A DNA stretch of 15,613 nucleotides from Thermococci archaeon (GTDB lineage: Archaea > Methanobacteriota_B > Thermococci > Thermococcales > Thermococcaceae). The translations under genes were made by a program, and so were the position numbers. Each line of letters starts with the position of its first letter. Within the stretch, counting starts at the first letter, position 1. Of this stretch, positions 2,385-15,613 are shown piece by piece. Below the pieces are notes generated by a model, which was not told the origin of the DNA, searched no databases, and saw nothing but the letters and a program-made list of their open reading frames with translations. The stretch lies in contig QMUF01000019.1 of NCBI GenBank assembly GCA_003663525.1, positions 1 to 15,613 of the forward strand. The letters run 5' to 3'.

Positions 2385-3110
2385 CTACATTCCAATGATA
2401 ATGTATATTCCAAGTGCTATCAAAATGGCCCCAGCTACCATTGAAAGTTCCCGTGAGCGTTGAACAATCTTTTGAGAGATTGATTTACTCTCTGTTATGC
2501 TGCCCATGGTGAACAGTATTATCAGCAAGGGGAGGATAAAAATAATGTTATAGAGGGCCAGAAGTATCAATGTTAACGTTCTTCCAACTTTGGAGATTAA
2601 GATTGCATAGGCCAAGTATGTTCCGGCTGAACATGGTAGGAGGGTGAAGGAGATTATCACTCCTAATGAAAAGGCCCCAAAAATTGTTGCTTCTTTTCTG
2701 AATATATTTCGTCTTACTTCGTTTTTTCCAACAATCCTGCTTTTTTCTAGGTAGCCCGTGATAAATGTGTAACCCCCGAAAACTATTGCTACAGCTCCAG
2801 CAATCCAAATAGGGAGTGTTTTAGTCAATATTACAAGACCTATCCCAAGAACGTAGTATGAGATGTAAATGGCTGCCACAAAGGCCAGTCCGACAGCATA
2901 GATTTTTCTTTTGGATATATTTTCTTTTAGGGATAGGGCAATAAGAAGCATTGTGTAGATAACGAATGTACAGGGATTTATTGAATCTGCTCCAGCAAGC
3001 GCTAGAAGAGGATAAATCAACTCTTTTAAGCCGAGAAAAGTTAAAATTCCGGCTGTTAGGCCTAGGGAGGACAAACTTATTAGAAGTAAAGCCTTGATTT
3101 CAGATCTCAC
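2385..3110 (-). CDS. CcdA/DsbD-like thiol-disulfide transporter, membrane protein
   Basis: This hydrophobic protein has about 241 residues and six predicted membrane helices. It carries the two half-site motifs of the CcdA family: DSINPCTF before the second helix and LLPCSAGTYL in the fourth. The paired Cys in these motifs carry electrons from cytoplasmic thioredoxin to an outside acceptor. The likely acceptor is encoded just upstream: the thioredoxin-like lipoprotein, whose gene overlaps this one. The frame is open from a TTG at 3140 and includes ATG 3122, but neither has a ribosome site. GTG 3110 has GGTGAG at 3120-3115 and is chosen here. The overlap with the upstream gene would then be 11 bases, consistent with coupled translation. 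The exact start is uncertain; the family call is strong. Confidence 0.85.
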   Translation of the reverse strand: MRSEIKALLLISLSSLGLTAGILTFLGLKELIYPLLALAGADSINPCTFVIYTMLLIALSLKENISKRKIYAVGLAFVAAIYISYYVLGIGLVILTKTLPIWIAGAVAIVFGGYTFITGYLEKSRIVGKNEVRRNIFRKEATIFGAFSLGVIISFTLLPCSAGTYLAYAILISKVGRTLTLILLALYNIIFILPLLIILFTMGSITESKSISQKIVQRSRELSMVAGAILIALGIYIIIGM

Positions 3111-3624
3111 TTGGCTCACCATTTGTGAAAATAGATTCAAGCTTATTAATGATTTCGGTGTTATTCCCTGGGATTAGGTATACTTTATCTGTTATAAAGA
3201 GCACACCCTTTACTTTCATGGCCTCCTTGACAAAATCGTCCGCGTAATCCGTTGGAAATTCTCCATTGACTATTGCATATAACTCTCCATCATAGAATAT
3301 CCCTATGACCGGCACACCGGTTACACCAAGGATCTCGTAGAGTTGGTTGAACATTTGGCTGTTGTGGTCGTTTCCTTGGAGCTCATAATACGTTAGGGCC
3401 TCTTTTCCAAATGCTTTGGGGAGTTCTTCTTTCATTTTCTGACAGTGGGGGCATGTGACTACTCCATATTCATAAAAATGGAACTTTGATTTATCTAGTG
3501 TGAAGGTGTCTGTGGTTTCTGTAGGGTTGGTTGTTGGAGTGCTAGAAGCCGAATTGTTATTGGAGATACACATGCTTGTGAATACAACCAGCATAATGAG
3601 TAATGACACTAAAATTCCCCTCAT
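3100..3624 (-). CDS. Thioredoxin-like lipoprotein (extracytoplasmic redox partner)
   Basis: The protein has 174 residues. The signal is a hydrophobic N-terminus with lipobox FTSMC, so Cys19 is lipidated, followed by a Ser/Thr/Pro/Asn-rich linker (about 20-42). The thioredoxin fold has active site CPHC at 58-61 and a cis-proline in GVPVIG (Pro104). The protein should sit on the outer face of the membrane and reduce or isomerise disulfides, recharged by the CcdA-like protein encoded downstream and overlapping. AAGGTGA at 3637-3631 is a good ribosome site, and a TATA box lies at about 3660-3670, spaced for a short leader. The gene is divergent from the CBS gene, with 157 bases between them. Confidence 0.88.
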   Translation of the reverse strand: MRGILVSLLIMLVVFTSMCISNNNSASSTPTTNPTETTDTFTLDKSKFHFYEYGVVTCPHCQKMKEELPKAFGKEALTYYELQGNDHNSQMFNQLYEILGVTGVPVIGIFYDGELYAIVNGEFPTDYADDFVKEAMKVKGVLFITDKVYLIPGNNTEIINKLESIFTNGEPSEI

Positions 3625-11032: not shown

Positions 11033-12424
11033 TTAAACTGTTCTAAAAGGCTGAGAGCGGGGCCAATTTAATATGGAAGGAGAACACGTTGGAACAGGAG
11101 GGAGGAAGTTAGGGATCTTGGTTCCAGGAATTTCTATGAAAATATCCTCTTTCACCTCCACCCTTAACAGATGATATGGTGTTTTAAAAGAGGCCTTTTC
11201 GTCTATTATGGGGATATCACGTTCTCTGTACACGTAATACTCTCCTTTTTTATACAGGGGTTTTATTATCTTGCCCCCATTTGTGAAATATAAGGGCATA
11301 TCAATTCCATCGATTTTGACATAGTATTTTCCTTTTCTGTGTATTATCGTTATATTTGTGTTTATTGTGGTGTTCTGGAAGTATCTCTCATAAGACCAAT
11401 TAAATGATTGGGGGATTATTAATGCATAGCCACCAGGATAGTAGTCAATTTGGTCATCTTTGGGGTTGTAAACTACTATACCGGTTTTACTGGATTCGAT
11501 TATTTTCATACCCTTGTATCTCACTTCATTAGTATTGGTGGTGTAATTTTGCACACTTTCGAGTCTGAAAAGAGGCATTTCGTCAGGTGCAAAGGGGGTG
11601 TAATTTCCAACGTATACTGCGATGTTGTCGTGGATTATCGGGTGGAGAGGATCTCTCTGTCTTGTTGGATCTATGGGATACCAGCCCACTTCAGGATCAT
11701 TTACAATGACCCATGCATGGCCTAGGCCTGTGTGGGTTGAGAACTGTACTAACTCTGGTATTGTGTTGAGTTCAGACGGGTCAATATATTTGTGGCTTCC
11801 ACCTACAGGGACTAAAACGTAACCCCCAACGTATTCTGCATTAATACCAGCATATCTAAGCATCTGTTGTGCCAAAATTGCCTTGTGTCTACAAACACCT
11901 TTTTTCTTTTTCCATATTTCGTCAATCAGCCAATTCGTTTCATTTTTGGTGAAAATCACACGCCCAAGTTCAGTTATGTAAGAAACATCTTCATACGTTA
12001 TGGTTTTGTGGACAAACCATGAAACTCGCCATGCAAATTCAGCGACGGTGTCACTAGATTCTGCAATTTCTTTCACTATTTTTTTCAAATCTTCAGGAAG
12101 ATAAACAGACTCATTATATTGGGGGATAAATTTTGAGGACTTAACCGGGGGTGCCCAAATAATTTTTCTTTTTCCTGTATACATAGCATACTCAACGCTG
12201 TAGTTTGCTAGGCTTATTTCATAATTCCCTTCTATTGTTGAGCCATATAACGCACTAATTGAGATACCATAATTTAGGGAGACCCCTGGGATTGCAGGGC
12301 GATTTTCGGATATAATTATGTACTTGGTTTCGAGGGTGCCAATGGGGATCGTTAAAGCACTTATGGGGGTTGCTGTTAGGAGTAATAGCATCAAAAGCGT
12401 TAATTTTATTTTTATGTATTTCAT
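11033..12424 (-). CDS. Secreted transglutaminase-like protein
   Basis: The protein has 463 residues and an N-terminal signal (Lys-rich start, hydrophobic 8-19, likely cleavage after PISA at about 23). A transglutaminase-like papain-fold domain spans about 125-260 with the Cys-His-Asp triad visible: Cys178 in GVCRHKAILAQQMLRYAGI, His236 in GLGHAWVIV and Asp252 in YPIDPT. Such domains cleave or cross-link peptide bonds; many archaeal ones are thought to be proteases. The C-terminal 200 residues are beta-rich with many Asn-X-Ser/Thr sites, fitting a glycosylated outside protein. No C-terminal membrane anchor is seen. GGAGATG at 12436-12430 lies five bases before ATG 12424. It is divergent from the peptide cluster; a link is possible but unproven. 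Confidence 0.85.
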   Translation of the reverse strand: MKYIKIKLTLLMLLLLTATPISALTIPIGTLETKYIIISENRPAIPGVSLNYGISISALYGSTIEGNYEISLANYSVEYAMYTGKRKIIWAPPVKSSKFIPQYNESVYLPEDLKKIVKEIAESSDTVAEFAWRVSWFVHKTITYEDVSYITELGRVIFTKNETNWLIDEIWKKKKGVCRHKAILAQQMLRYAGINAEYVGGYVLVPVGGSHKYIDPSELNTIPELVQFSTHTGLGHAWVIVNDPEVGWYPIDPTRQRDPLHPIIHDNIAVYVGNYTPFAPDEMPLFRLESVQNYTTNTNEVRYKGMKIIESSKTGIVVYNPKDDQIDYYPGGYALIIPQSFNWSYERYFQNTTINTNITIIHRKGKYYVKIDGIDMPLYFTNGGKIIKPLYKKGEYYVYRERDIPIIDEKASFKTPYHLLRVEVKEDIFIEIPGTKIPNFLPPVPTCSPSILNWPRSQPFRTV

Positions 12425-12581: not shown

Positions 12582-12734
12582 CTCATATTCAAAACTCAAT
12601 GAGTGGTAATCAATTTTTTCTCGAAAAACTTTTTATTGTGGTTTTTGGATTATAATTACTGGTGGTAACCGATGTGGAGGAAAGCACTTGCTTTGGGTTT
12701 GGTGTTAATGGCGTTTGGAGTTGTGGTTGGAGGA
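12582..12734 (+). repeat. Promoter-plus-leader direct repeat, copy A
   Basis: It aligns without gaps to 15286-15438 (offset 2704). The core 12607-12734 differs at about 14 of 128 positions by eye; the part left of it is weaker. It includes the TATA element (TTTTTAT, 12630-12636), the ribosome site GGTGGT (12661-12666) and the first 21 codons of the following gene. DNA similarity drops sharply after codon 21. Confidence 0.85.
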
Positions 12735-12980
12735 ATATTTGAAAATAGTAACTTGACATACAGATTAACTAAGAAATACACAAATCCCGAAAAAGCTGCA
12801 ATTGTAGGAGGAGCTGCAGGAACAGCATTAGGATGGGTGGGTGGTAAGGCTATTGATTACTTAAGTGGAAGAGCAGCAGCTTATATCGGGGCACGTGTTG
12901 GAGCAAGAGTTGGAGCAGCATTCGGCGGTCTTGTTGGAGTGGCTGTTGGAGTAGTTGTGGGTGCAGCAGTTGGATACTAA
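12672..12980 (+). CDS. Glycine-zipper hydrophobic peptide, candidate membrane-active peptide precursor
   Basis: The protein has 102 residues; I do not know a named family for it. Residues 5-21 form a hydrophobic leader ending VVVGG, followed by a polar linker with LTKKY (32-36). Then come two glycine-zipper segments. In the first, Gly is at 46, 50, 54 and 58. In the second, Gly falls at every fourth residue from 73 to 101 (eight in a row: GARV GARV GAAF GGLV GVAV GVVV GAAV GY). Such zippers pack helices tightly in membranes and occur in pore formers and some bacteriocins. The ribosome site GGTGGT precedes the ATG by five bases. A two-helix membrane protein gene follows after 37 bases, then a DUF95 gene. 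Leader and promoter are duplicated at 15.3 kb in front of a different body. A structural membrane-protein role is the alternative. Confidence 0.75.
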   Translation: MWRKALALGLVLMAFGVVVGGIFENSNLTYRLTKKYTNPEKAAIVGGAAGTALGWVGGKAIDYLSGRAAAYIGARVGARVGAAFGGLVGVAVGVVVGAAVGY

Positions 12981-13017
12981 CGTTCAGAAATCTAAGTGCT
13001 GAGCGTGGAGGGAGAAC

Positions 13018-13233
13018 ATGAAGCACAATCTTGCCAACATTATTGTTCCAATACTTGCCCTGACATTAATAGCTAAGACTACTCAAAATATAGTATTTAC
13101 AATTGTTTCGGGTCTTACTTTGGGAAGCTTTCTAGCATCAACCAAACATTCACATACAAGGATCATAGGTACCATAGGCCTAATTATTGGAGTCATCATC
13201 GGCTACTCTTTAATTCCGAAAATACTGCCATAG
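13018..13233 (+). CDS. Small two-helix membrane protein, unknown function
   Basis: The protein has 71 residues, is basic, and has hydrophobic helices at about 7-19 and 24-40 plus a third hydrophobic stretch at 48-66. The end GLIIGVIIGY has Gly at 54, 58 and 62 followed by Tyr, the same pattern as the C-terminus of the preceding peptide (Gly 93, 97, 101, Tyr 102). GGAGGGAG at 13007-13014 is an excellent ribosome site, and the 37-base gap makes an operon with the glycine-zipper gene likely. Tiny basic membrane proteins next to membrane-active peptides often give self-immunity; that role is a guess here. Confidence 0.7.
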   Translation: MKHNLANIIVPILALTLIAKTTQNIVFTIVSGLTLGSFLASTKHSHTRIIGTIGLIIGVIIGYSLIPKILP

Positions 13234-13333
13234 CTCATGTTATCAGTAGTATCTAGTGAAAACCTCTACTGTTTATATTTTTTAACAGGGACACATACCT
13301 TTCAACACACGAAACGATCCATGAGGGGAGCAT

Positions 13334-13861
13334 ATGAACAACAGACCGTTTTTGATTTTAGTATTCTTTTTCCTTTTAGGTCTAATTTTTGGAGTTTTTT
13401 CCGCATTATTTCATGATTATTCGGCATATTTTGGCTTTGATCCTTTTGACAATTTCAATCCGGGAGTTTTATTCTTTTTTAAACACAATCTCAAGGTGGC
13501 TTTTTTGTTATGGTTCGGTGCAGTAACGCTTGGTATAACAACCCTGGTGAACTTGTTCTCTAATAGCTTTATTTTAGGCTCAGCTATAAAAACAGTTACA
13601 AGTCAAGTTGGACTAACAAAAACTCTCCTCCTAATCCTTCCTCATGGCATTTTTGAAATCCCTGGCTTAATTATTGCCGGAATCGCTGGCTTTAAAATCC
13701 CCTATGAGATATTGAGATTCGTTTTGGGCAAGAAGGAGGAAATAATCACTGAAGAAGATGCAAAAGAATTCTTTAAACTTGTTGGTCTTTCAATTCTTCT
13801 GATTTTCATTGCGGCGGTAATAGAAAGCAAAATAACACTAAAACTGGCTGAACAATTGTGA
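13334..13861 (+). CDS. SpoIIM/DUF95-family membrane protein
   Basis: The protein has 175 residues and about five membrane helices. The family signature is clear: the segment FKHNLKVAFLLWFGAVTLGI around 50-69 and LPHGIFEIPGLIIAGIAG around 102-119, including the hallmark Pro-His-Gly and Glu-x-Pro. Family members act in spore engulfment in Bacillus, but in Archaea and in circular-bacteriocin loci DUF95 proteins are linked to maturation, export or immunity of hydrophobic peptides. The ribosome site is GAGGGGAG (13323-13330), three bases before ATG 13334. The 100-base gap upstream has a TATA-like GTTTATATTT (13271-13280), so it may be transcribed alone as well as with the peptide genes. A T-rich stretch follows it (about 13869-13879). 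Confidence 0.85.
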   Translation: MNNRPFLILVFFFLLGLIFGVFSALFHDYSAYFGFDPFDNFNPGVLFFFKHNLKVAFLLWFGAVTLGITTLVNLFSNSFILGSAIKTVTSQVGLTKTLLLILPHGIFEIPGLIIAGIAGFKIPYEILRFVLGKKEEIITEEDAKEFFKLVGLSILLIFIAAVIESKITLKLAEQL

Positions 13862-13933: not shown

Positions 13934-15223
13934 ATGATATCAAAAGAAGTCTGGGGTAGAATAATAAGGGACCACCTTGAGTGGGATGTTAAACTTGTTG
14001 AGCGAAGTATAAACTACAGTATACCTAAGATCCAAAGAGCTTTGGCAATCATTGGGCCACGAAGAGCTGGAAAAACTTATTTCATGTTCCAGATAATTAA
14101 AGAGCTTTTAAAACACGGGGTTAAGAAAGAAGAGACGATCTACATTAATTTGGAAGATCCCAGGATAATAGATACTAGTTTAGATGATTTATTAGGCCTC
14201 TTGGATGTCTATTACTCCCAATTTCCTGAAAATGTAAAGGGACATAACTACTTTTTCTTGGATGAAATCCAAACAGTTAAAAATTGGGAAAAGTTCGTGA
14301 GGTTCTTACTTGATAAAAATCAGCGGGTGATTGTTTCGGGTTCTTCCTCCAGGCTTTTCTCAAAAGAAATAGCAACTGAACTGAGGGGGAGGAGTATCCC
14401 TATAAAAGTTTATCCCTTTTCATTCAAAGAGATACTGATTTCTAATGGAATAAAGGTCGATAGATTCTACTCCACTTATGAGGAAGCTAAGATCAAGAAG
14501 CTACTTAGGCAATATCTCCGTTGGGGAGGTTATCCCGAGGTTATACTAGACTTTTCTTTGAGGAGAGCTATTCTTCAAGAGATAGTTGACCTAACGATTT
14601 ATAGGGATATTATTGAAAGGTGGAGGGTAACTAACATAAAAGCTTTGAGAGTCCTTTTCAAGATGCTTGCCTCCTCATCACATCTTTCTATTTCCAAGGC
14701 TTATAAAAACTTGAAGGGAATTGGTATCGAAGTTGGAAAAACAACGGTTGCAAATTATTTGGAGTACTTGGAGGACTCCTTGGTCTTTTATGTCCTCAAA
14801 CCTCTGGCGAAATCGTATAAGTTGCAGGAGTTGTATGGATTTAAACCATATTTGGTGGACAATGGACTGATGGCCGTTTTGGGTATTGAAGACGAGGGTA
14901 GATTACTGGAGAATTTGGTTTTTGTCGAACTTTTGAAGGCAGGTCTGGAGCCAAATAGAGATCTATTTTATTACAGGACAAGGGATAATAAAGAGGCGGA
15001 TTTTGTTCTAAAGGAAAAAGAGAGTGTAAGAGAAATACTTCAGGTTACCTATGAAATTAATAATACCAACTATGAAAGAGAAGTCTCCGCCTTAATCAGA
15101 GCATCGAGAGAGCTCAGTTGTAATAATCTTTTCATTATTACGTGGGATCAGGAGGATGTGATTAAAGAGAAAGGGAAGGAAATTAAGGTAGTACCTCTGT
15201 GGAAGTGGCTTCTTTCTATTTAG
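13934..15223 (+). CDS. Archaeal AAA ATPase with DUF4143 C-terminal domain
   Basis: The protein has 429 residues. The N-terminal P-loop domain has Walker A GPRRAGKT (41-48), Walker B YFFLDEIQ (Asp110-Glu111) and a sensor segment VSGSSSRLFSKEIATELRGR (134-153). Residues 200-310 form a helical/winged-helix part. The C-terminal DUF4143 region has a restriction-nuclease-like core, with Glu in LLENLVFVELL, Asp in NKEADFVLKE, and LQVTYE where the catalytic E-x-K would be, so the nuclease site looks incomplete. Cellular role of the family is unknown; copies are numerous and variable in archaea. It lacks a ribosome site and is probably leaderless. It is not an ABC-transporter ATPase, so it should not be read as the export motor of the neighbouring peptide genes. 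Confidence 0.88.
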   Translation: MISKEVWGRIIRDHLEWDVKLVERSINYSIPKIQRALAIIGPRRAGKTYFMFQIIKELLKHGVKKEETIYINLEDPRIIDTSLDDLLGLLDVYYSQFPENVKGHNYFFLDEIQTVKNWEKFVRFLLDKNQRVIVSGSSSRLFSKEIATELRGRSIPIKVYPFSFKEILISNGIKVDRFYSTYEEAKIKKLLRQYLRWGGYPEVILDFSLRRAILQEIVDLTIYRDIIERWRVTNIKALRVLFKMLASSSHLSISKAYKNLKGIGIEVGKTTVANYLEYLEDSLVFYVLKPLAKSYKLQELYGFKPYLVDNGLMAVLGIEDEGRLLENLVFVELLKAGLEPNRDLFYYRTRDNKEADFVLKEKESVREILQVTYEINNTNYEREVSALIRASRELSCNNLFIITWDQEDVIKEKGKEIKVVPLWKWLLSI

Positions 15224-15285: not shown

Positions 15286-15438
15286 CTCTTATTCAAGGTT
15301 AAGGGAGTAGTAATCAATTTTCATTCAAAAAACTTTTTATTGTAGTTTTTGAATTATAATTATTGGTGGTAACCAATGTGGAGGAAAGCACTTGCTTTGG
15401 GGTTAATGTTGATGGCTTTAGGAGTTGTGGTTGGAGGA
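15286..15438 (+). repeat. Promoter-plus-leader direct repeat, copy B
   Basis: This is the partner of 12582-12734, gap-free. It carries the same TATA element (15334-15340), the same GGTGGTAACC ribosome region (15365-15374) and near-identical first 21 codons. Several codon differences are silent (for example GGT/GGG, TTA/TTG, GCG/GCT), suggesting the leader protein sequence is under selection. Confidence 0.85.
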
Positions 15439-15613
15439 GCTGTTGGAGAGGGGAGGTTTTCAGCGTATCTAAGTAGGAAATATCAGAAAAAAGCTGATTA
15501 TTATTGGGATAAATATGAAAAGGCATTAGCTGAAGGGAACACTGCAAAAGCTGAATATTACCGCGCAAAAGCTGAGAGATATCAGAGAACAGCAGATAAA
15601 TATTTTGACGTTG
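15376..15613 (+). CDS. Second leader-family protein with Tyr-rich heptad helix (cut by window edge)
   Basis: The first 79 codons are in the window. Residues 1-21 match the glycine-zipper peptide except at positions 11 and 15, and LSRKY at 32-36 aligns with LTKKY at the same positions, so the two share a 36-residue N-terminal module. After that this protein is hydrophilic: repeated seven-residue units with pattern x-A-(D/E)-x-Tyr-x-x (KADYYWD, KAEYYRA, KAERYQR, TADKYFD), predicted as a long amphipathic helix. No family is recognised. The C-terminus, which might carry its own hydrophobic segment, is outside the window. Confidence 0.75.
   Translation, partial: MWRKALALGLMLMALGVVVGGAVGEGRFSAYLSRKYQKKADYYWDKYEKALAEGNTAKAEYYRAKAERYQRTADKYFDV

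Follow-up and report, generated by a model that had tools for sequence, protein, structure and literature searches.

Gene clusters known for circular bacteriocins have in common an ABC transporter, a SpoIIM (DUF95) membrane protein and an immunity protein that is small, cationic and hydrophobic; loss of the DUF95 protein of leucocyclicin Q causes the mature circular peptide to build up inside the cell (PMC6131525, in the sections covered here). For archaea, the covered sections of two surveys describe DUF95 genes (arCOG01996) clustering in Pyrococci, with a suggested membrane-associated defence role (Makarova 2014, PMC4158269), and favour membrane remodelling as the function of archaeal SpoIIM loci (Makarova 2015, PMC5898192).

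The stretch of DNA analyzed here (the window) is a contig of 15,613 nucleotides from a Thermococcaceae archaeon (QMUF01000019.1), in which an initial annotation had proposed a cluster of three genes for a membrane-active peptide with a circular-bacteriocin-like layout. Open reading frames and Pfam confirmed the genes as placed. The first (12672..12980, + strand) encodes a 102-residue precursor peptide of core type I, which, with the border placed by inference after VVGG, would comprise a 21-residue leader (12672-12734, +) and an 81-residue variable core (12735-12977, +). After a gap of 37 bases follows the gene for a 71-residue partner, a putative immunity protein (13018..13233, +) that is hydrophobic (GRAVY 1.06) and basic (charge +5), and then that for a 175-residue SpoIIM/DUF95 membrane protein of an island-type subfamily (13334..13861, +), with an FGFDPFD stretch and the motif LPHGIFEIPG. 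The last of these matches PF01944 (SpoIIM; E 2.3e-28), and neither the 102- nor the 71-residue protein has a Pfam family above cut-off. Because all three are kept in the same order in a relative (G079), with identities of 98, 92 and 85%, respectively, we regard them as genes rather than chance reading frames. Comparison of the window with G079 gives a dN/dS of 0.11 (peptide) and 0.13 (SpoIIM); the value of 2.07 for the partner comes from very few changes (dN 0.04, dS 0.02).

Downstream of SpoIIM lies an AAA_14/DUF4143 ATPase (13934..15223, +) that among the fetched regions occurs only in the window's genus and is probably accessory. It is followed by a second precursor peptide (15376..15613, +) that has the same leader and another core, like type V by eye, and runs off the contig end. 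The cassette array probably continues on contig C81 of the same genome, because C81 holds the genes that flank the island in G079: read backwards, it shows a small hydrophobic gene in the partner position, then an island-type SpoIIM and, beyond it, epimerase, HepT, nucleotidyltransferase and polysaccharide genes. Upstream in the window, at 11033-12424 (-), is a gene for a transglutaminase-like protein with a hydrophobic N terminus, which in four genomes neighbours the island where this lies at site A and in G079 is not called; it could be a flank gene or a processing enzyme. A thioredoxin-like CPHC protein beside a CcdA-like membrane protein (2385-3624, -; by eye) is unrelated to the cassette.

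Both cassettes of the window are preceded by the same promoter element. For cassette 1 (12602..12674, +) it consists of AGTGGTAATCAA (12602-12613), a TATA-like AAAAACTTTTTATT (12624-12637) and GGTGGTAACCGATG (12661-12674), which overlaps into the start codon of the peptide; for cassette 2 it spans 15306..15378 (+). In both, GTRGTAATCAA and GGTGGTAA stand on either side of the TATA-like box, and this pair has two occurrences in the window's own genome (82.8% complete), both in the window, with none for a reversed-pattern control. In the window's genus, each of the 16 peptide starts found at site A or B has the form GTRGTAATCRA ... GGTGGTAA at a fixed distance before it. This form occurs nowhere else within the 25 scanned sequences, and it is absent from the loci of the other genera. 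The repeat around the TATA-like box looks like an operator for some regulator.

The distribution of the peptide was examined order-wide (94 Thermococcales genomes) and phylum-wide (115 genomes). An alignment search gave matches in 17 of the 115, all of them Thermococcales, and the remaining 21 genomes of the phylum had no match; a single-sequence search gave 18 of the 94, the extra one (G063) being a piece of a 746-residue frame. A search of genome contigs yielded three loci, all in one Thermococcus bin, JdFR-02. No relatives of the peptide were found in viral contigs and plasmids, and none of SpoIIM in phage records. We fetched 25 regions around peptide and SpoIIM matches, leaving a housekeeping locus (L073) out of the counts, and chose 23 intact peptides by eye, without the window's cut copy, the truncated duplicate L084 and broken copies. 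The islands or their flanks also carry genes of the kind seen in defence hotspots, namely HEPN-like, HepT, PIN-like and transposase-like ones (L075:9398-10203, L077:6660-7467, L074:11969-12508, L078:10204-10542 and L083:3276-4150; HepT by Pfam, the rest by eye).

The precursors are built from a constant and a variable part. Over 241 inter-genome pairs the mean identity is 0.80 in the leader versus 0.33 in the core, and the cores fall into about eleven types, named by eye. They measure 52-89 residues, with a positive GRAVY in 20 of 23 and a positive net charge in 15 of 23; those of type V, at a GRAVY of about -0.2, are not hydrophobic. Within a type the core is conserved, as dN/dS is 0.09-0.21 for the five computable of seven core pairs. 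A saposin-like helical fold is the family fold of circular bacteriocins; AlphaFold models of the type I precursor and the type III core are all helix and poor (pLDDT 53 and 56, respectively).

Directly after each of the 23 intact peptides stands a gene for a small, mostly hydrophobic protein (31-173 residues; GRAVY positive in 20 of 23 and charge in 21 of 23), and the order peptide, partner, SpoIIM recurs in five genera. To compare partners with cores, we scored inter-genome pairs as related at a shuffled-sequence z > 6, a threshold set once, ignoring kinship of the genomes. Partners were related in 13 of 26 core-related pairs versus 1 of 215 core-unrelated pairs, and in a permutation test of the matching none of 5000 runs reached 13, the maximum being 6. 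Where the core z exceeded 20, the partners were related in 10 of 10 pairs; the 13 core-related pairs with unrelated partners were weaker (z 6.2-19.1) and mostly across types. Types X and XI have a common partner without a similar core. The same core-partner pair can also be found at different chromosomal sites across genera, type II lying at site A in G084, at site B in G074 and again in G005.

Partners outnumber peptides. Searching the window and 24 regions by tblastn with the partner families, and discarding 15 matches (10 incomplete or containing stops, three within peptide genes, one at a contig edge and one in the duplicate L084), left 60 full-length open reading frames; since the regions were picked around peptide and SpoIIM matches, the count covers these regions only and would miss partners encoded elsewhere. 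Of the 60, 25 come after an intact peptide (23 peptides, of which two have a second partner), and 35 have none, eight of them near a broken peptide; locus L078 holds a row of eight different partners without peptides. The reverse case, an intact peptide lacking a partner, does not occur (0 of 23), and this asymmetry is as expected for toxin and immunity. Pairs with at least one orphan partner gave dN/dS of 0.07-0.55 where computable, over a span that includes time when the gene was paired. For the family of the 71-residue partner, the order-wide search found eight genes, all within the fetched regions.

A constant leader, a variable core and a matched partner, as in these cassettes, are also found in signalling peptides. 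The core might accordingly act as a pheromone that is exported by SpoIIM/ABC and received by the matched membrane protein. We think this quite unlikely, given partners as short as 31 residues and at most 173, of which five scanned with Pfam have no family above cut-off, and given no obvious reason for receptors to outlive their peptides 35 to 0.

In the partner of the type V peptide of L077, 32 residues are 69% identical to the core of its own peptide (E 3e-13), and tblastn detects the same peptide-like segment in the type V partners of L086 and L087 (genes at L077:8010-8204, L086:7656-7850 and L087:7540-7737). The segment could reflect immunity by mimicry, or the partner could be a second subunit.

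Some SpoIIM gene is present in 88 of 94 Thermococcales genomes, and two kinds can be told apart. A distant copy, about 30-40% identical to the window's protein, forms a separate clade (10 rows, support 100/99) that can serve housekeeping roles; the placement of bacterial rows in this tree is unsure. The island type, mostly 50-85% identical to the window's, is found in 17 of 17 peptide genomes versus 2 of the 77 others (G078 and G085, remnants only). Within 2.3 kb downstream, 21 of the 23 intact peptides have the SpoIIM motif; in L079 and L081 a further partner gene comes before it. Together with the constant presence of a partner, this supports, by sequence comparison, the earlier reading as a bacteriocin-like cassette; a peptide found widely apart from membrane-protein neighbours, which would have spoken against it, was not seen. 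Two intact peptides, L091_7920 and L075_8538, have no SpoIIM or a remnant beside them; the SpoIIM gene is split in L069 and L093 and shortened in L081. Among 14 full-length island proteins, mean identity is 80% in the C-terminal half and 43% in the N-terminal half. FGFDPFD is present in six (types I, IV, VI and X) and absent from eight (II, III, V, VIII and IX); both N-terminal forms never occur within one core type among the 14, where more than one member is available only for types I, II, IV and V. A sequence search found no solved structure for SpoIIM.

The initial annotation had noted that the window lacks an ABC component, and a distinct permease is indeed encoded elsewhere in this genome, on contig C84. 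At site C, an ABC-2 operon is oriented divergently from the peptide cluster and comprises a permease, an ATPase, a large protein with extracellular-type domains and a second permease-like protein. Counting matches above 60% identity, the peptide-nearest permease is present in 15 of 17 peptide genomes and in 0 of 77 others (Fisher p 1.5e-15, relatedness ignored), other relatives among the matches listed being at most 48% identical. Of the 68 genomes in genera g4 and g5, three have peptide or permease, and all three have both. The permease of the window's genus lies away from intact cassettes, at a distance of about 408 kb in G079, for example, and stands beside cassette remnants in G084 and G077. 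Some peptide genomes have the permease gene next to their peptides. The two peptide genomes without it are G004, in which the SpoIIM genes beside its single peptide are cut, and G009, with broken peptides and a permease remnant of 155 of 326 residues. The large extracellular-type protein of the operon was rejected as a cassette marker because it is unspecific (61 of 94 genomes at E 1e-60).

The same genes could instead serve an intracellular membrane toxin-antitoxin or virus-exclusion system, in which an unsecreted peptide depolarises the cell's own membrane upon infection and the partner restrains it. Such a system could yield the same pattern of orphans and pairing, and the islands also contain a HepT gene and, by eye, HEPN- and PIN-like genes. 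It leaves unexplained, however, why most cassettes include SpoIIM and why the ABC-2 permease co-occurs, and rows of different partners without peptides, eight in L078, better suit immunity to foreign peptides. We therefore hold it to be unlikely, although the least improbable of the alternatives.

We searched plasmid records with the window's SpoIIM and obtained ten matches, three bacterial and seven archaeal. All three bacterial ones (Priestia, S. aureus pRJ101 and Anoxybacillus) lie in annotated circular-bacteriocin clusters; the archaeal matches H3, H5 and H7 lie outside such cassettes and are long SpoIIM proteins, of 489-518 residues by coordinates, and H8 is without annotation. A membrane-remodelling or vesicle complex has been proposed for archaeal SpoIIM/Yip1 loci (Makarova 2015); in its favour, diverged small membrane proteins accompany SpoIIM in Archaeoglobi, Methanococci and Thermococci (PMC5898192, section 3.3, as far as covered). 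Variable cores, partners matched to them and orphan partners would not be expected from such a complex. Moreover, a YIP1 gene also sits inside the annotated circular-bacteriocin cluster of Priestia (L117:2066-4363), which makes a vesicle role of archaeal YIP1/SpoIIM loci less likely, and housekeeping roles can fall to the separate SpoIIM clade. We consider the vesicle reading very improbable here.

Taken together, these comparisons of sequences suggest, with a probability of roughly 70%, a polymorphic bacteriocin-like (archaeocin) system with a shared leader/SpoIIM/ABC-2 route, a variable toxin core and a matched immunity protein. The constant hydrophobic leader would feed the precursor into the shared membrane route of SpoIIM and the ABC-2 transporter, which may be unlinked from the cassette, and the variable, mostly hydrophobic core would be released as a membrane-active peptide. 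The released core may quite possibly be cyclised head to tail, as in SpoIIM-dependent bacteriocins; this is the least certain part of the explanation, and no protease or cyclase was recognized among the scanned neighbour genes. The peptide would then harm related archaea without the matching small protein, and the partner would shield the producer. Secretion, leader removal, killing and protection by the partner are steps that we infer. The cassette sets look like peptide weapons in the manner in which they vary and decay, and they probably represent a new archaeocin family, a variant of SpoIIM-dependent bacteriocin systems. A bolder version, to which we give somewhat less than even odds, is that this is the first polymorphic circular-type bacteriocin family of hyperthermophilic archaea, with one leader, one SpoIIM/ABC-2 route, about eleven interchangeable core types and an immunity gene dedicated to each; for some of these genes, those of type V, protection would come from a copied segment of their own toxin.

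To our knowledge few archaeal peptide weapons have been described, and the part of the literature covered names none from Thermococcales. If the archaeocin reading is true, the islands would provide a testable toxin/immunity system at very high temperature, in an order for which laboratory strains and genetic tools exist, and a source of unusually heat-stable membrane-active peptides; archaeal SpoIIM islands would be weapons loci, not vesicle factories. The single leader over many cores makes the part of SpoIIM in bacteriocin maturation directly testable.

The peptide family was not found named in the literature covered on Thermococcales bacteriocins or archaeocins and on SpoIIM/DUF95, a scope that stops short of the 2019 archaeocin survey. 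Among described loci, the hypervariable Ig-domain module of Thermococcales (PMC8416519, as covered) is likewise a conflict locus with variable downstream genes, but its proteins are others, and SpoIIM/DUF95 appears 0 times in the main text. The arCOG01996/DUF95 dark-matter islands of Pyrococci and methanogens, compared here by layout, likewise have a DUF95 gene clustered with small variable membrane proteins; their descriptions, in the sections covered (PMC4158269, PMC5898192), are without a precursor peptide, leader/core design, core-specific or orphan partners, permease or circular bacteriocins. The best plasmid-borne SpoIIM match (38.7%) is on pMETHO01 of Methanomethylovorans hollandica, also with small hydrophobic proteins. 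There (NC_019972.1, L116:3787-5435), two near-identical 66-residue hydrophobic peptides and an 80-residue hydrophobic protein accompany SpoIIM. The peptides belong to another family, with YIP1 and ABC genes alongside; they have no family match and no significant similarity to bacterial circular bacteriocins, and the locus is a candidate for another archaeal SpoIIM-linked bacteriocin.

The nearest relatives in design are the uberolysin/carnocyclin-type circular bacteriocins (PF09221, TIGR03651; S. aureus 4185 pRJ101). None of the 23 cores matches the bacteriocin models PF09221, PF12173 or TIGR03651 (Pfam, NCBIfam), profiles of types II and III gave no match when compared with those of five bacterial circular bacteriocins, and neither did the type II core against PDB sequences. 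The likeness to circular bacteriocins put forward in the initial annotation holds for SpoIIM, the small partner and, by co-occurrence, the ABC permease, but not for the cores, which have no detectable homology to known circular bacteriocins; because they match no bacteriocin model, the likeness is one of system. The archaeal cassette and the bacterial clusters have in common a small precursor, a homologous SpoIIM/DUF95 protein (E 2.7e-21), a small basic hydrophobic partner and an ABC transporter. Unlike the uberolysin/carnocyclin type, the Thermococcales peptides carry a 21-residue hydrophobic leader, signal-peptide-like by eye, that is kept over many cores, and their genes stand in arrays of up to five (one broken), in an archaeal host and often unlinked from the ABC permease.
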